Part shown: positions 4,348 through 39,082 of the stretch, piece after piece
How positions within the stretch are numbered: the stretch's first letter is position 1
How the letters are laid out: each line of letters begins with the position of its first letter
Source of the DNA: Haladaptatus sp. R4
GTDB taxonomy: Archaea; Halobacteriota; Halobacteria; Halobacteriales; Haladaptataceae
Assembly (NCBI RefSeq): GCF_001625445.1
Contig: NZ_LWHG01000011.1
Coordinates: forward strand, 372,001 to 436,000
Length of the DNA stretch: 64,000 nucleotides
Direction: 5' to 3'
Made by a program: the position numbers and the translations under genes
Notes under the pieces: generated by a model
The model's database searches: none
What the model was told of the DNA's origin: nothing
Seen by the model: only the letters and a program-made list of their open reading frames with translations

Positions 4348-6582
4348 ATGTCTACCTCGGGGAACAGTCTCATCGGCGAGGATACGGCGAGAACGGTTGC
4401 TTCAGGCCGTGAAACCATTGGCGGCCTATTGAGAACGGCACAGAAGGAACTCCAGAAGGTTTTCATCGTCTTCGTCATCGGGTTTCTCGGCACGTTCTAT
4501 AGCATGTCGTGGGTGGTCATCCCGTTCCTCCGCCACGTGACGAAATCCGGGATGTCACCCGAGATACGGAGGCACGTCAACATCGTCGCCGTAACGCCAT
4601 TCGACGTCATCCTTCTTCAGGCAAAAGTTGCGATGTTCGCCGGAATCGCCGTCTCCATCCCCGCTCTCCTCTACCTCGGCCGAAATTCGATCCGGGATCA
4701 GGATTGGTATCCCGATGCCTCCATCTCCTACTGGAAAATCATCCCGCTGGTGTTGCTCGGAATCCTGTTGTTCGTCGGCGGGATCGCCTACGGCTACTCC
4801 GTCTATCTCCCGATAATGTTCAGCTTCCTGGCGAAAAACGCCGTGAACGCCGGTTTGAATCCAAAGTACGGTATCGTACAGTGGATCGAATTCGTCCTCA
4901 TCATCTCCCTTTCGTTCGGTCTCGCAGCGGAACTCCCGCTGATCATGAGTTCGCTGAGCTACTCGGGTATCGTGCGCTACGAGACGTTCCGTGACAAGTG
5001 GCGGTACGCCGTCCTCATCATCTTCGTCTTCGGTGCCGTGGCCTCGCCGCCCGACCCGTTCACGCAGGTGATGTGGGCGGTTCCGCTCTGTCTCCTCTAC
5101 GGGTTCAGCCTCTACCTGTCGAAGTTCCTCGTCACCATCAAACGGGGAAGCAACGAGGTGAGTCCGAGGACGGCGATTCGGGACAAGTGGAACTACATCG
5201 CCGGAATCACGCTCGTCGCGGCGGCGGCGGCGTACCTGTTCATCACGCAGAACGGCATCGACTTCGTGAACGAACAGCTCCTTTCGGGACTCCCGGCGAA
5301 GTACCGTCCAGCGCCGTTCCCGCCGATACAACAAGCCATCGGCGTCCCGCGCGAAACGGCCGTCGTCCTGACCGCCGTCGCGGTCGCGCTCGTCGCGCTG
5401 ATCCTCGCTACGCTCTACTTCCTGTTTACCTCCCTCGAAGAGAGCGCGGCCATCGGTCAGTCCACTGGTCTCGACCCGTACGAACTCGACGCGGCGGGTA
5501 TCCGTGCCGCTCCGCCGGAACTGTTCGCCGAGATGGGCGAGGGCGAGTCGGTCGAGTACGCCCGCGCCGCGATGGATTCCGACCAACCCGAGAAGGCACA
5601 GGCCATCCTCGACCGCTACGACGCGGCACAGGAAGCGAAGGAGGCCGACGCGGCGGTTCAGACGGGCGAGAGTGATCCCGACGCACCCGAGGGCGAAGCA
5701 CCACTCGCCGAGGACGTGGCACAACAGAGTACCGAGCAGGAGGGGAACGTCTTCCAGCGCACCACGGCGGGGATGGCGAGCGCGTTCACCGACGACGAGA
5801 CGACCGAGGACGACATCGGCGGCTACTACTACGACTTCGCGTTCATCGCCCAGAGCCTCATGTCGAAGATGTTCCGCATCGTCATCGTGTTCATGCTCGT
5901 GCTCGCGGGCGTCTTCGTCTACCTCTATCAGGGTGGTATCGGAACCATCAACGAGGACTTCACCAGTCGCGTCCCGGCGGCCGTGACGGCCGTCGCCGGT
6001 AACGGACAACTGCTCAACGTCGTGACCCTCCATCCGGTCGAGGCGCTCATCTTCGAAGTGAAGATCAGCACGCTGCTCGCCGTCGTGTCCGTGCTCCCGA
6101 TGGTGCTGTACTACGGATGGCCCGCGATGAAGGAGCGAAACCTCGTCCGCGGGAACCGAAACGTGTTCTTCGCGTGGGGTGGCGCGCTCTTCGCCGGTCT
6201 CCTCGTCGGCAGCTACATCGGCTACACCATCGTCGCGCCGGAGATCATCTCGTGGCTGGTCATGGACGCCCACCGCGCGGACATGGTCATTTACTACCGA
6301 GTGAAGGCGTTCTTCTGGCTGGTCTTCCTCACCACGGTCGGTATCGGCCTTCTCGCCGACATCCCCGTGACGATGTTCCTGTTCCACTGGGGCGGCATTC
6401 TCAACTTCAAGACGATGTTCGAACACTGGCGTCCGGCCATCATCGGCATCTTCGTCATCGCCGCGCTCGTGACCCCGGACAGCCTGTACACGCTGTTCCT
6501 CATCGCGATTCCCCTCTCGGTCGCCTACCTCATCGGTCTCGGCGGCCTCTGGGTCGGGACGCTCGGCGGTCGGCGCGCCTGA
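4348..6582 (+). CDS. tatCt: Double-length twin-arginine translocase TatCt
   Basis: TatCt is a haloarchaeal speciality in which two TatC-like halves are fused in one polypeptide with about 14 membrane spans. The 744-residue product shows a first TatC-like half (roughly residues 30-260), two extra helices (about 275-365), a long acidic cytoplasmic linker (about 370-490), and a second TatC-like half from about residue 505 to the end. It is divergent from the single-length tatC, so the pair probably supplies both receptor forms. The second half ends in Gly/Leu-rich helices and the stop falls just before an RHH gene. Confidence 0.93.
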   Translation: MSTSGNSLIGEDTARTVASGRETIGGLLRTAQKELQKVFIVFVIGFLGTFYSMSWVVIPFLRHVTKSGMSPEIRRHVNIVAVTPFDVILLQAKVAMFAGIAVSIPALLYLGRNSIRDQDWYPDASISYWKIIPLVLLGILLFVGGIAYGYSVYLPIMFSFLAKNAVNAGLNPKYGIVQWIEFVLIISLSFGLAAELPLIMSSLSYSGIVRYETFRDKWRYAVLIIFVFGAVASPPDPFTQVMWAVPLCLLYGFSLYLSKFLVTIKRGSNEVSPRTAIRDKWNYIAGITLVAAAAAYLFITQNGIDFVNEQLLSGLPAKYRPAPFPPIQQAIGVPRETAVVLTAVAVALVALILATLYFLFTSLEESAAIGQSTGLDPYELDAAGIRAAPPELFAEMGEGESVEYARAAMDSDQPEKAQAILDRYDAAQEAKEADAAVQTGESDPDAPEGEAPLAEDVAQQSTEQEGNVFQRTTAGMASAFTDDETTEDDIGGYYYDFAFIAQSLMSKMFRIVIVFMLVLAGVFVYLYQGGIGTINEDFTSRVPAAVTAVAGNGQLLNVVTLHPVEALIFEVKISTLLAVVSVLPMVLYYGWPAMKERNLVRGNRNVFFAWGGALFAGLLVGSYIGYTIVAPEIISWLVMDAHRADMVIYYRVKAFFWLVFLTTVGIGLLADIPVTMFLFHWGGILNFKTMFEHWRPAIIGIFVIAALVTPDSLYTLFLIAIPLSVAYLIGLGGLWVGTLGGRRA

Positions 6583-23956: not shown

Positions 23957-24040
23957 CGGAACTGGCATTTCGGCGGTCGTTCTTTCGAATTTGAAACCCG
24001 TCAGAACCAATAGAATTAACTCCCCATAGTCAATACTCCC

Positions 24041-24121
24041 ATCCGAAGCATGCGGGGTAAAGCCGCAAAAGGCCAGTGCAGGAACACTGACCCCGTCTGC
24101 TTCGGAGCCTACCGAAGCATG
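24041..24121 (+). promoter_or_regulatory. Candidate RNA switch: three-way-junction leader with alternative start-codon hairpin
   Basis: The sequence can form a three-way junction. P1 pairs 24042-24050 with 24098-24106 (9 bp), then a 2x2 internal loop, then 24053-24058 with 24090-24095 (6 bp). P2 pairs 24062-24064 with 24071-24073 (loop GCAAAA). P3 pairs 24074-24078 with 24085-24089 (loop CAGGAA). The 3' strand of P1 (TGCTTCGG, 24098-24105) can instead pair with a second copy of CCGAAGCA at 24112-24119, making an 8-bp hairpin that ends on the A of the ATG at 24119. The two folds exclude each other. A TATA-like TAGAATTAA about 25 nt upstream would start transcription near 24041. The structure is seen; regulation is inferred. 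Confidence 0.55.
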
Positions 24122-24328
24122 TCGGACAACGAACCTTCTAATGAAAAGCGTATCGCCACCACACAAACCGTTCTCTGTCTCAAAGGCATCGACCGCGAGG
24201 ACGTGGACGAGCAGTTGTTGGAACTGATCCACGAGCATTTCAAGCAAAAGGGGCTGGTCGTGCGAGATATCTCGGTTCACGCCCAGCGACGGTACGCGTC
24301 CGGTCGTTCGTGGCGTGAAACACCGTGA
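24119..24328 (+). CDS. Small protein of unknown function downstream of the candidate RNA switch
   Basis: I do not recognise this 69-residue product. It has an acidic, disordered start, then TTQTVLCLKGIDREDVDEQLLELIHEHF, which should form a strand and an amphipathic helix, then a basic C-terminus (HAQRRYASGRSWRETP). The ATG at 24119 is chosen because the codon sits just after the leader hairpin. An in-frame ATG at 24050 lies in an identical CCGAAGCATG context and would add 23 residues that overlap the predicted stems. Confidence 0.55.
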   Translation: MSDNEPSNEKRIATTQTVLCLKGIDREDVDEQLLELIHEHFKQKGLVVRDISVHAQRRYASGRSWRETP

Positions 24329-24412
24329 AGAGGACAGCGAGTGGTAGAATTCTTCTGTTTTTTGTGAGTTGCTCAGTCACGGCTCGTTGATTCTGGTGGA
24401 GTAAGTGCAGCA

Positions 24413-24550
24413 ACTGCGATGAAGTCCTCGAAAGCCCCCGCCCGTTCGCGGTCATTGCGCGGGATATTCGCGCTCTCCACAACGCCCGCGCGAATACTGG
24501 CCCGCGCAAGCGACCAAGCAAGCGCGAGCGGACGGAAGCTTTCGGGGTCT
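24413..24550. repeat. Nested hairpin element, copy 2
   Basis: This element aligns along its length with 13186-13320. It starts ACTGCGATGAAG and shares CGAAAGCCCCCGCCCG, GGATATT, the TCTC loop region and ACCAAG. Its own stems are outer 24455-24463/24501-24509 (TTGCGCGGG/CCCGCGCAA) and inner 24465-24473/24488-24496 (TATTCGCGC/GCGCGAATA). The 5' segment CGAAAGCCCCCGCCCG also pairs imperfectly with CGGACGGAAGCTTTCG at 24528-24543, giving one hairpin of about 120 nt. It fills most of the gene-free stretch 24329-24679; nothing else is supported there. Confidence 0.75.
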
Positions 24551-24679
24551 GCCTCTCAGTAGCTGCAATCGCAATAGAATCAAAACTAAACGCATCATTT
24601 CGCCACAAGCGCAGTCTAGTCCCTCCCGCCGTTCGTGTTGCGCGTCGGATTTATATTTCGAGAGACCCTACCACGAATC

Positions 24680-26679
24680 GTGAGCGAGCGAACGAGTGCC
24701 CTCGACGCCCTCGTTTTCGGTGTCGATATCCAAAGCGGGGACGTTCGGGGTGATTCTCCCTCTTACGCGCTCGTCGTCTACGACGGCGAGGGAATAGACC
24801 GCGATGTCGTCTCTTACCGCAAACTCCGGCGGCTCATCCACCGCGACGAACCGACGTTCGTCGCCACGGACAACATGTACGAACTCGCCGCCGACAAGAA
24901 CGCTCTCGTCCACTTCCTCGGCTCCCTGCCGGACGACACCCGCCTCGTGCAGGTGACCGGCGCGGAGCGACCCGAACCGCTTTCCCGGGTCGCCTCGCGC
25001 CACGGCGTTCCATACGGCAAGAAACCGATGCGCGAAGCGGAGGCTGCGGCCCGCCTCGCGGCCATGAACGTCGGCCAAGAAGTCTCGGCGTTCACGAACA
25101 CCACACAAGTCAAAGTCGCACGTGGGCGTTCGACCGGAAAGGGTGGCTGGAGTGCCGACCGCTACACCCGCCGGATTCACGGCTCGGTGAAGGAGTACTC
25201 CCGGAAAGTCGAATCGAAGCTCAAGGAGGCTGGACTCGACTACGAACGCGACGTGACCGAGAAGTACGGCGGCTACTCGAACGCGATTTTCAGCGTGGAG
25301 GCCCGGCCGAGCGACATCCCGGTCTCGGCCCGGCGTTCCGGCGACATCCGCGTCGAAGTCGAACGCCTCCGCCGCGACGGCATCGAGTTCGAACCGCTGG
25401 CGAAGCGCCGCGATCACGTCATCGTTGGGATCGACCCCGGTACGACCACCGCTGTAGCGATGACCGATTTGGACGGCAACGTGCTCGACGTGTTGAGCAC
25501 GCGAACCGCCGACACGGCCGACGTCATCGAGTGGATCATCGAACGCGGGCGCCGGTCATCATCGCGGCGGACGTGACGCCGATGCCCGAGACGGTCGAGA
25601 AGTTCCGCCGGAGTTTCGACGCGGCCGGATGGACTCCCGACACGGACCTGCCGGTGGACGAGAAGCAACACCGCACGAGAGAAGACGGCTACGACAACGA
25701 CCACCAGCGCGACGCGATGGCGGCCGCGCTGTTCGCCTACGACAGCCACGAGGACCAGTTCGGGCGAATCGCCCGGAAGGTCCCGCCGGGAATCAGCCGC
25801 GGCGAGGTAACCGCCCGTGTCGTCGCGGGCGACGAGAGCGTCGAAAGCGTCCTCCGTGACCTGTCGGACGACCCGGAACCCGAGGAGGAACAGTCCGAAC
25901 ACACCGTCCGCGAACTCTCCCCCGAGGAGAAACGCATCAAACAACTCGAATCGCAGGTCGAACGCCTCCAGTCGCACGCGGACGATTTGAACGAGAAAGT
26001 CGAGCGAAAGGACGAGCGAATCGACGAGTTGGAGACGGAACTCTCGGACACGCGGCGGAAGGAACGGCAGAGCGCCCGCGAACGCAGGGAAATCTCGCGC
26101 CTGCAACGCGAGAACAACAGACTGGAGGACGAACTCGACGACCGCGACGAGACCATCGAGGCGCTGGAAGGCAAACTCGCGCGACTCAAGGAACTGTGGA
26201 AACTCGACCACTCGAACTTCAGCGACGTGTCGGAGAAGCAGGCCGGACTCGTCGCCGTCAAACCTATCGAGAAGTTCACCAACGACGCCATCGACGCCGC
26301 CGACGAGAGCTACGGCCTCGCCGACGGCGACGTGATTTTCCTCCGCGACGCGAGCGGCGCGGGACATTCGACCGCCGAGCGGTTAGCGGACATCGCTCCC
26401 CGCGTCGTCCTGAAAGCGGGTGGCATCTCCGACGCGGCGGACGAGGTACTGTTCGAACACGACGTTCCGGTCGGCCCCGCCGACGGAGTGACGATTCAGG
26501 AGATAGACGAACTCGCCGTCGCACGCGAGTCGGAAGTCGAAGCCGTCATCGACGACTGGCACGACCGGGCCGAGGAACGCCAGAAACAGGAAAAGGCCGA
26601 CCAACTCGACCAACTCATCAGCGAACATCGGGCTGAGAGTCGAGCGGACGGTCGCGGGTCGTCCTCGCTCGGGAACTGA
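24680..26679 (+). CDS. DUF460 protein: RNase-H-like fold plus coiled coil (frameshift at about 25550)
   Basis: This is the conserved archaeal DUF460 family, of unknown function. The first part (from the GTG at 24680) contains an RNase-H/RuvC-like segment, VIVGIDPGTTTAVAMTDLDG, near residue 250. After IIERG the frame breaks and continues one base short as PVIIAADVTPMPETVEKFRRS, which is the same fold's later strand. A long coiled coil follows (about residues 410-510, rich in Glu/Arg/Leu), then a C-terminal domain ending EKADQLDQLI. Restoring one base at about 25550 gives a product of about 666 residues. I infer nucleic-acid-linked work from the fold only. Confidence 0.85.
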
Positions 26680-33076: not shown

Positions 33077-34763
33077 ATGTCACAACCAATGGGCAACCAG
33101 CCACTTATCGTTCTTTCCGAGGACAGTCAGCGAACCTCCGGACGGGACGCACAATCGATGAACATCACGGCCGGGAAAGCGGTCGCAGAGGCCGCACGTA
33201 CCACACTCGGCCCGAAAGGGATGGACAAGATGCTCGTCGATTCGACGGGCGACGTCGTCGTAACGAACGACGGTGTAACCATCCTCAAAGAGATGGACAT
33301 CGAGCACCCGGCGGCGAACATGATCGTCGAAGTCGCCCAGACGCAGGAAGACGAAGTCGGCGACGGGACGACCAGCGCCGTCGTCGTCGCTGGTGAACTC
33401 CTCCAGAAGGCGGAGGACCTGCTCGAACAGGACATCCACGCCACGACCCTCGCACAGGGGTACCGTCAGGCCGCCGAGAAGGCGAAGGAAATCCTCGAAG
33501 AGAACGCGATCGAAGTCGATTCCGACGACACCGAGTATCTCGAAAAGATCGCCGCGACGGCGATGACCGGCAAAGGCGCGGAGAACGCCAAAGACCACCT
33601 CGCCGAACTCGTCGTTAGCGCCGTGCAGAGCGTCGCCGACGAGGACGGCGTCGACACGGACAACATCAAAGTCGAGAAGGTCGTCGGTGGCACCATCGAC
33701 AACTCCGAACTCGTCGACGGCGTCATCATCGACAAGGAGCGCGTCCACGACAACATGCCGTACTTCGCCGAGGACGCAAACGTGGCCCTCGTCGACGGTG
33801 CGCTCGAAATCGCCGAGACGGAAATCGACGCGGAAGTCAACGTCACCGACCCCGACCAACTCCAGCAGTTCCTCGACCAAGAGGAATCCCAACTGCGTGA
33901 GATGGTCGATTCGCTGGTCGAGTCGGCCGCCGACGTCGTCTTCGTCGACGGCGGTATCGACGACATGGCACAGCACTTCCTCGCACAGGAAGGCATCCTC
34001 GCCGTCCGCCGTGCGAAATCGAGCGACATGCAGAAGCTGGCCCGCGCGACCGGTGCCTCCCTCGTCAACAACGTCAACGACATCACCGAGGACGACCTCG
34101 GATTCGCCGGAAGCGTCGCCCAGAAGGACGTCGGCGGCGACCAGCGCATCTTCGTCGAGGAAGTCGAAGAGGCGAAATCCTGCAGTCTCATCCTCCGCGG
34201 CGGCACGGAACACGTCGTCGACGAAGTCGAGCGCGCAATCGAGGACAGCCTCGGTGTCGTTCGCGTCACGCTCGAAGACGGCAAAGTGCTCCCCGGCGGT
34301 GGCGCTCCGGAAACGGAACTCGCCCTCTCCCTGCGTGACTACGCCGACAGCGTCGGCGGCCGCGAACAGTTGGCCGTCGAAGCGTTCGCTGACACGCTGG
34401 AAGTCATCCCGCGCACCCTCGCCGAGAACGCGGGTCTCGACCCCATCGACTCGCTCGTGGACCTCCGTAGCAAACACGACGGCGGTCAGAAGAGCGCAGG
34501 TCTCGACGCATACACCGGCGACATCGTCGACATGGAAGAGGACGGCGTCGTCGAACCGCTCCGCGTGAAAACGCAGGCGGTCGAAAGCGCCACGGAAGCG
34601 GCCGTCATGCTCCTCCGCATCGACGACGTCATCGCGGCCGGTGACCTCTCCGGCGGCAAAGTCGGCGACGACGATGACGAAGCGGTCGCCCGGCGGTGCC
34701 CCCGGCGGAATGGGTGGCATGGGCGGTATGGGCGGCATGGGCGGTATGGGCGGTGCGATGTAA
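33077..34763 (+). CDS. Thermosome (group II chaperonin) subunit (frameshift at about 34691)
   Basis: This is the archaeal chaperonin subunit, which folds proteins in a closed double ring. The start [22 protein letters not shown], the ATP-site motifs [14 protein letters not shown] and [15 protein letters not shown], and the C-terminal ATPase segment are intact. After GDDDDEAVA one extra C in CCC (34689-34691) throws the frame. With it removed the protein ends in GGAPGG followed by repeats of GGM and a TAA at 34763, the usual haloarchaeal chaperonin tail. That gives about 561 residues. Read literally, the frame would instead run to 34870 with an unlike Arg-rich tail. Confidence 0.95.
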
Positions 34764-38240: not shown

Positions 38241-39082
38241 GCGCGAATCCCTCTCCGTCCAACTATTTTTGGATACGCGACGATTACACCCTGTACTACC
38301 GCGTTGATGGCGAAGATGGCGGCGAGCGGCAGCGATGCTTGGAGTCCGATGTACGAGAGGACACCGAGGGAAAAAAGCCCCACGACGGCCGTCGAACGGG
38401 ACACCGTTCCGTCCGGTGGTCCGACCGACTCCCACGCGATCAACGCCCCGACGGTCCCGCCGAGTGCGGTGACGGCATCCACCAGGTCGGTTTCCGCGAG
38501 TGCGGCAGTGACGGGTGGCATGAGGACGACGATACAGAGCGCCGCGAAGGCCCAGAGGACGGCGAGGGCGAACGCCGGTCTCGGCCGTCGCTTGAAGCCA
38601 CCGATGAGGACGGCGAGATAGACGAGGCCGATTCCGACGCCCGCGATCACGTCGACGGTGAAATGAACGCCGAGAACGAGTCGTGTGAGACAGATGAGCG
38701 CAACGATGACGCCCGCAACCGCCAGCCGTGTCGCTCTGCTCCCGCGGTCGAACGTCAGCGCGAGGAGGACCCAAAACACGGTCGAACCGAGCGCGTGACC
38801 GCTCGGAAAGCCGTATCCCGACGCGTTCACGACGTGATACGTTTCGGGCGGCCGTGCCAACGCGAAAAATCCTTTCAGCGCGAGCGTCAACGACAGTGCC
38901 CCCAACGTCGCGGCGAGGAGGAATCCGTACTTCTCGCGGTCGTCGCTGGTCCAGTAGAGCAGCGCACCGAGGACGAAAAACAGCCCCGCATTACCGAGTT
39001 GGGTGACGTAGGCGAACACCTGCGGTATCCAATGCGGTAATACTTGATGGAAGAACTCCACCACTCCCAAACCACGGGACAT
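38237..39082 (-). CDS. PAP2-family membrane phosphatase
   Basis: The 281-residue membrane protein has the three PAP2 motifs: [11 protein letters not shown] (KxxxxxxRP), FPSGHA (PSGH) and [16 protein letters not shown] (SR/TRxxxxxHxxxD), all in predicted loops between helices. Such enzymes remove phosphate from lipid phosphates or isoprenyl diphosphates. The start [11 protein letters not shown] at 39082 is chosen over a longer extension. It lies 2 bp from the YihY gene, so the two are probably co-transcribed. Confidence 0.87.

Follow-up and report, generated by a model that had tools for sequence, protein, structure and literature searches.

A folded mRNA leader probably opposed by antisense RNA: a recurrent control module of haloarchaeal plasmids, viruses and chromosomes

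The closest described relatives of the element considered here are two transcripts of the halophage phiH (information from PMC4284463, PMC3674436 and PMC6210493, with coordinates from the phiH1 record MK002701). The early lytic transcript T4, divergent from repR, has a mapped start at 34556, and transcript T1 has one at 38582. An antisense RNA, Tant, mapped at 38732, begins one base before the T1 ATG; PMC4284463 and PMC3674436, citing PMID 7683366, describe Tant as pairing with the initial 151 nt of T1 and the duplex as cut by a host RNase, with loss of the ribosome-binding region. Haloarchaeal antisense control long rested essentially on this one phage transcript.

A related arrangement is found in Haladaptatus sp. 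R4, in a 64,000-nt stretch of contig NZ_LWHG01000011.1 (the window, to which unlabeled coordinates refer). Here, CCGAAGCATG occurs twice, at 24043-24052 and 24112-24121, with the complementary TGCTTCGG at 24098-24105 between the two copies and an ATG at 24119. The original prediction was that the middle strand pairs with one copy or the other in mutually exclusive folds, and both pairings were recovered. The region 24035-24135 folds with -42.8 kcal/mol (z -5.05; none of 200 shuffles equaled the native sequence), and 24043-24106, which contains P1, P1b and two inner hairpins, reaches a z of -7.1. Upstream pairing forms P1a (5' strand CCGAAGCA, 24043-24050, with 24098-24105), extended by P1b (24052-24058 with 24090-24096), and closes a three-way junction around P2 (GCC-GCAAAA-GGC, 24062-24073) and P3 (CAGTG-CAGGAA-CACTG, 24074-24089), with the two inner loops that had been proposed. 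Downstream pairing, of 24098-24105 with 24112-24119, gives an 8-bp hairpin of -12.4 kcal/mol when folded alone, its last pair on the A of the ATG, again as anticipated; the middle strand thus serves P1a as its 3' strand and the start-codon hairpin as one of its two arms.

A sense promoter block, AACCAATAGAATTAACTC, lies at 24005-24022 on the forward strand, and a TATA-like AATTAA (24014-24019) is found 24-29 nt 5' of the fold. Transcription is predicted to start at 24041-24043, at the base of the fold as originally suggested, judging from the TATA spacing and from the phiH1 T4 and T1 starts, which also lie at fold bases; a weight matrix of sense promoters scores best in the window for a fold start at 24045-24046. 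Promoter spacing agrees with a start at the fold base across the family as well, the mapped cases being those of phiH. The ORF at 24119-24328 (forward strand) encodes a 69-aa protein with homologues in Haladaptatus. The protein had been called unrecognised, and it matches no Pfam or NCBIfam family above cut-off; the structure model (pLDDT 71, pTM 0.45) was of insufficient quality for fold comparison. A run of T at 24358-24363, 3' of the ORF, may be a terminator. The other reading offered at the outset, alternative start use, is unsupported because other copies lack the upstream ATG that here shares both the frame and the 10-nt context of the second.

The window copy is flanked upstream by rnz, in the same direction, and on the other side by a DUF460 gene; no copy was seen beside rnz in eight other species. 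The DUF460 gene (24680-26679) is split over two ORFs, the first matching positions 3-76 of the Pfam domain and the second 76-135, and therefore a frameshift, whether a mutation, a sequencing error or recoding, lies near 25530-25576. Between the module and this gene, a dispersed intergenic repeat (24390-24570) has 49 matches in its own genome, and two further genomes of the genus have 34 and 14; the same repeat also occurs downstream of several other chromosomal module copies, in either orientation.

The locus belongs to a family. A search of 40 related genomes with a 296-bp region returned several copies per genome within Haladaptatus. Most chromosomal copies have promoter block, junction, hairpin and first codons in common, but beyond these the proteins differ: some belong to a 62-69-aa family, others are zinc-ribbon-like proteins of 50 aa or short peptides, and most products are 50-70 aa long. 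A covariance model built from 20 copies (R1) matched all nine Haladaptatus genomes and 51 of 392 Halobacteriales genomes; one built from 55 copies (R2) matched 105 of the 392, in 45 of 95 genera. Across a phylum-wide sample, every match fell within Halobacteriales. Carriers include Haloferax mucosum, Halosimplex salinum, Halorubrum persicum, Natronomonas aquatica, Haloarcula japonica and Halovenus salina, as well as three IMG/VR contigs. Many bacterial genome contigs match an exact DNA pattern; none of those tested was accepted by the covariance model. The idea that the Haladaptatus chromosomal copies were recently mobile was rejected: three copy pairs between two genomes (G003 and G004) have common flanks, and these copies are therefore vertically inherited, even though the one beside rnz was missing from that place in the eight other species. 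Rfam 15 returned nothing on the element at gathering or relaxed thresholds, and phage records yielded no blastn match to either of two consensus sequences. The three-way-junction family, its distribution, its strand assignment and the backward promoter signature described below were not found in the open-licence literature searched. The module constitutes a previously unrecognised, haloarchaea-wide control element whose folded mRNA leader probably faces an antisense RNA, which would generalise the control known from phiH.

Covariation among homologues, on which the original prediction had staked its stems, was found for both helices; of the grounds for rejection set out with that prediction, none that could be checked applied. 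For the junction, 83 matches (the majority from other genera) were compared: 20 of its 21 pairs changed on both sides, and the covariation score was 0.310, compared to 0.114 when shuffled and at most 0.044 when slid. Covariation is strongest in P3, which is 99.5-100% paired; the P2 tip carries AGAA or GAAA in 72 of the 83. The start-codon hairpin scored 0.245 vs. 0.066, in an alignment fitted to the junction and not to the hairpin, and its compensatory changes are concentrated in hairpin-only pairs, one of which is GC in 41 copies, UA in 24, CG in 8 and AU in 2. An outer pairing past the ATG, GTCGGAC/GTCCGAC, appears in some Haladaptatus folds; on inspection, it is not kept in other copies.

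Two covarying pairings, together with a leader that lies directly 5' of the ATG in nearly all copies, would suit a translational switch confined to the sense mRNA, in which a ligand, an ion or folding time toggles the middle strand and the hairpin blocks initiation; when each is forced on the sense strand, the median gap between junction and hairpin is just 0.75 kcal/mol. The pattern of substitutions points elsewhere. A G-U pair on one strand is an A-C mismatch on the other, so wobbles report the strand on which a helix is used. With 24 G-U and no A-C, P1a must be under selection in the sense RNA. The start-codon hairpin departs from Watson-Crick pairing once as G-U and 11 times as A-C, and is therefore mainly favoured in the antisense RNA, although the 11 are not all independent: five come from five genomes and the rest from Haladaptatus chromosomal copies that may be related. 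Partition-function folding with approximate natural ends gives P1a a pair probability of 0.66-0.73 in the sense RNA and the hairpin 0.60-0.68 in the antisense RNA (Wilcoxon p < 1e-7); in the window copy with natural ends, the extended P1 junction wins on both strands. The hairpin at 24098-24119 is read on the reverse strand, mainly as the 5' hairpin of a predicted antisense RNA. A switch acting in the mRNA alone does not account for these A-C departures, nor for a motif in codons 9-13 or the phiH antisense RNA, and the genes it would control are unrelated; we consider it unlikely. The same asymmetry, unrelated genes, backward promoter signature and T1/Tant precedent disfavour the ligand riboswitch covering the start codon that was first envisaged. 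More generally, a covarying "alternative fold" can belong to the opposite strand, and counts of G-U vs. A-C can reveal it.

The P3 loops carry YUNR in 68 of 116 cases, vs. 15% expected. YUNR is a U-turn motif of antisense recognition loops.

Evidence for the opposing transcript comes from the beginning of the coding region. Across 99 family ORFs, position +37 is G in 97%, and +26, +27, +29, +33 and +36 are likewise constrained; codon 13 is GNN in 97%, yet residue 13 may be D, G, E, A or V. The nucleotide motif at +26 is present in 75 of the 99 family ORFs vs. 5 of 372 control ORFs, and in all 19 chromosomal copies. Read on the other strand, the motif consists of CG and then a T-rich, TATA-like stretch, and matches the promoter spacing of about -36 and -26 at haloarchaeal antisense starts (PMC6523106); in the window, it is GAAAAGCGTATCG (forward-strand letters) at 24143-24155. 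A weight matrix built from sense promoters only, when slid along the antisense strand, gives a single peak, at the place from which RNA would begin at the ATG, with a mean of 1.1 bits vs. -10.6 for controls. Four phage leaders outside the training set of the matrix peak at -1, -1, -2 and -4 among 70 positions. The window copy peaks at -6, not -1, and is therefore a less typical example. Judged by sequence, the family thus carries a candidate antisense promoter that would start RNA at the ATG, convergent with the sense promoter; in the window, the predicted antisense RNA would start at about 24115-24121 and span 24042-24120 on the reverse strand.

The matrix scores this backward promoter as weak, 1.1 bits vs. 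9.4 for sense promoters, and some copies have N-terminal residues in common, as might be expected if the motif were instead an operator, an RNA-binding site or a translation enhancer, with antisense RNA made only against phiH T1. This is highly improbable, given that the GNN of codon 13 persists while its residue varies, that the single sharp matrix peak falls at promoter spacing, and that the phiH T1 antisense start has been mapped at the predicted place. The T4 ORFs of phiH1 (34730) and phiCh1 (34209) also carry the backward signature, with best positions at -1 and -4; on this basis, T4 too is predicted to have an antisense RNA, one not yet described.

The wider set of 100 copies comprises those of other genera and the plasmid-type ones of Haladaptatus; 88 of them have a small divergent gene upstream, and none has such a gene on the same strand. 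This layout is that of the halophage phiH immunity region. Fifty-two of the divergent genes encode phiH-repressor-like wHTH proteins, and 36 belong to a family beginning RALLTERERE that has no Pfam match. The latter (RALLTERERELI...RYQAISRVR...ELTTDVEVL), standing in place of the wHTH gene, may represent a novel family of repressor type. In the plasmids of Haladaptatus, the element has a small HTH-like gene diverging on one side and an operon of hypothetical genes on the other; directly after the leader (at about 5070-5140 in plasmid copies L074-L078), an unannotated 23-aa ORF (MTSNTLSVEKRIDYQ...GG) ends in TAATG, overlapping the start of the conserved hypothetical-gene operon. Downstream genes encode SWIM proteins, zinc ribbons, short peptides and unmatched proteins, with no common pathway and no evident shared function. 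In Natronomonas aquatica (L206) and in L086, the module precedes a protein of about 290 aa beginning (I/Y)RIRTELLVIGDSI, which may resemble CRISPR Cas7/Csf2 proteins.

The frequency of the divergent gene, and a junction whose conserved hairpin tips could serve as a protein site, would be compatible with autoregulation by a product of the first or the divergent gene that binds the leader. Yet the same RNA accompanies divergent genes of two families with no relationship to each other and a host of equally unrelated first genes, the divergent gene is absent at the window copy, where the upstream neighbor is rnz, and phiH Rep works on DNA, at the T4 promoter. A protein-binding leader is thus very unlikely.

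The reading that we favor, and hold to be probable on the strength of these signatures, is a sense/antisense leader of the phiH T1/Tant type, here driving the 69-aa protein. Transcription from the sense promoter would begin with the first bases of the leader, which would close as a three-way junction just 5' of the start codon, while the backward promoter in codons 9-13 would start an antisense RNA near the start codon. By analogy with phiH, this RNA would be made in Haladaptatus too; it would cover the leader, and its own 5' hairpin would be the second fold of the original prediction. The two RNAs probably meet via their hairpin loops and then pair, and the duplex may be cleaved and the leader removed, as in phiH. 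Expression would thereby be lowered, or changed if the product is a leaderless mRNA. In plasmid, virus and island copies, the module heads an operon divergent from a small repressor-like gene, resembling a lysogeny-style double lock; on Haladaptatus chromosomes, the copies stand alone and drive small proteins.

With an antisense start at the AUG, the border of double- and single-stranded RNA, the reported site of a haloarchaeal RNase, would lie at the start codon. A cut there would turn the structured, leadered mRNA into a leaderless one beginning at or beside the AUG, and the antisense RNA could then activate, or change the mode of translation, and not silence. This outcome is doubtful; if true, the mRNA would take the form of most haloarchaeal transcripts, by a route common to the plasmids, viruses and chromosomal small-protein genes of haloarchaea.

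Like the module, translational riboswitches combine a junction in the 5' leader with a second, alternative pairing that involves the start codon; unlike them, the module is not followed by a common pathway, carries an antisense promoter signature and uses its hairpin mainly on the other strand. Type I toxin-antitoxin loci such as hok/sok, and the antisense-controlled leaders of plasmid replication, combine small ORFs, a structured leader and an overlapping antisense RNA. Like hok/sok-type loci, the module has several copies per genome, small ORFs and putative recognition loops. By contrast, the module proteins tested match no toxin family and have no evident membrane segment, and many copies head operons.

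The T4 leaders of phiH and phiCh1 are closer. T4 RNA from 34556 folds as the same kind of junction (z -7.4; phiCh1, z -4.2), the phiH start is mapped to its first base, and a repressor gene diverges from it. R2 gives about 20 bits to each leader, with an E value of 0.02 for phiCh1 in an unrestricted search; the link to T4 thus draws on position and fold in addition to score. These leaders are longer, with a second large hairpin after the 3' copy of the repeat and the ATG about 170 nt from the start, and no antisense RNA has been reported for them.

The T1/Tant pair (Stolt and Zillig, 1993) matches in other respects. The T1 start is the base of a leader fold (z -4.1), and the RNA carries GAGCA ... 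TGCTC ... GAGCATG, i.e., a repeat before the ATG with its complement between the copies. T1 likewise has the backward promoter motif at +26 to +37, a small divergent HTH gene (imm) and, as mapped in phiH, an antisense start at the ATG. Its leader of 151 nt has other inner helices, whereas the module has about 75 nt in a compact three-way junction; R2 does not report the T1 leader, so that the layout is common to both and the compact junction is not. T1 is known from one phage, with its antisense RNA and cleavage reported there and predicted here, while the module is found on plasmids, proviruses and chromosomes. The layout of T1 now extends to about half of the sampled haloarchaeal genera, with both folds covarying and a fixed backward promoter signature, and offers a compact system in which to study antisense RNA action in archaea, the role of an RNase at double-/single-stranded borders and the locking of early operons in viruses and plasmids.
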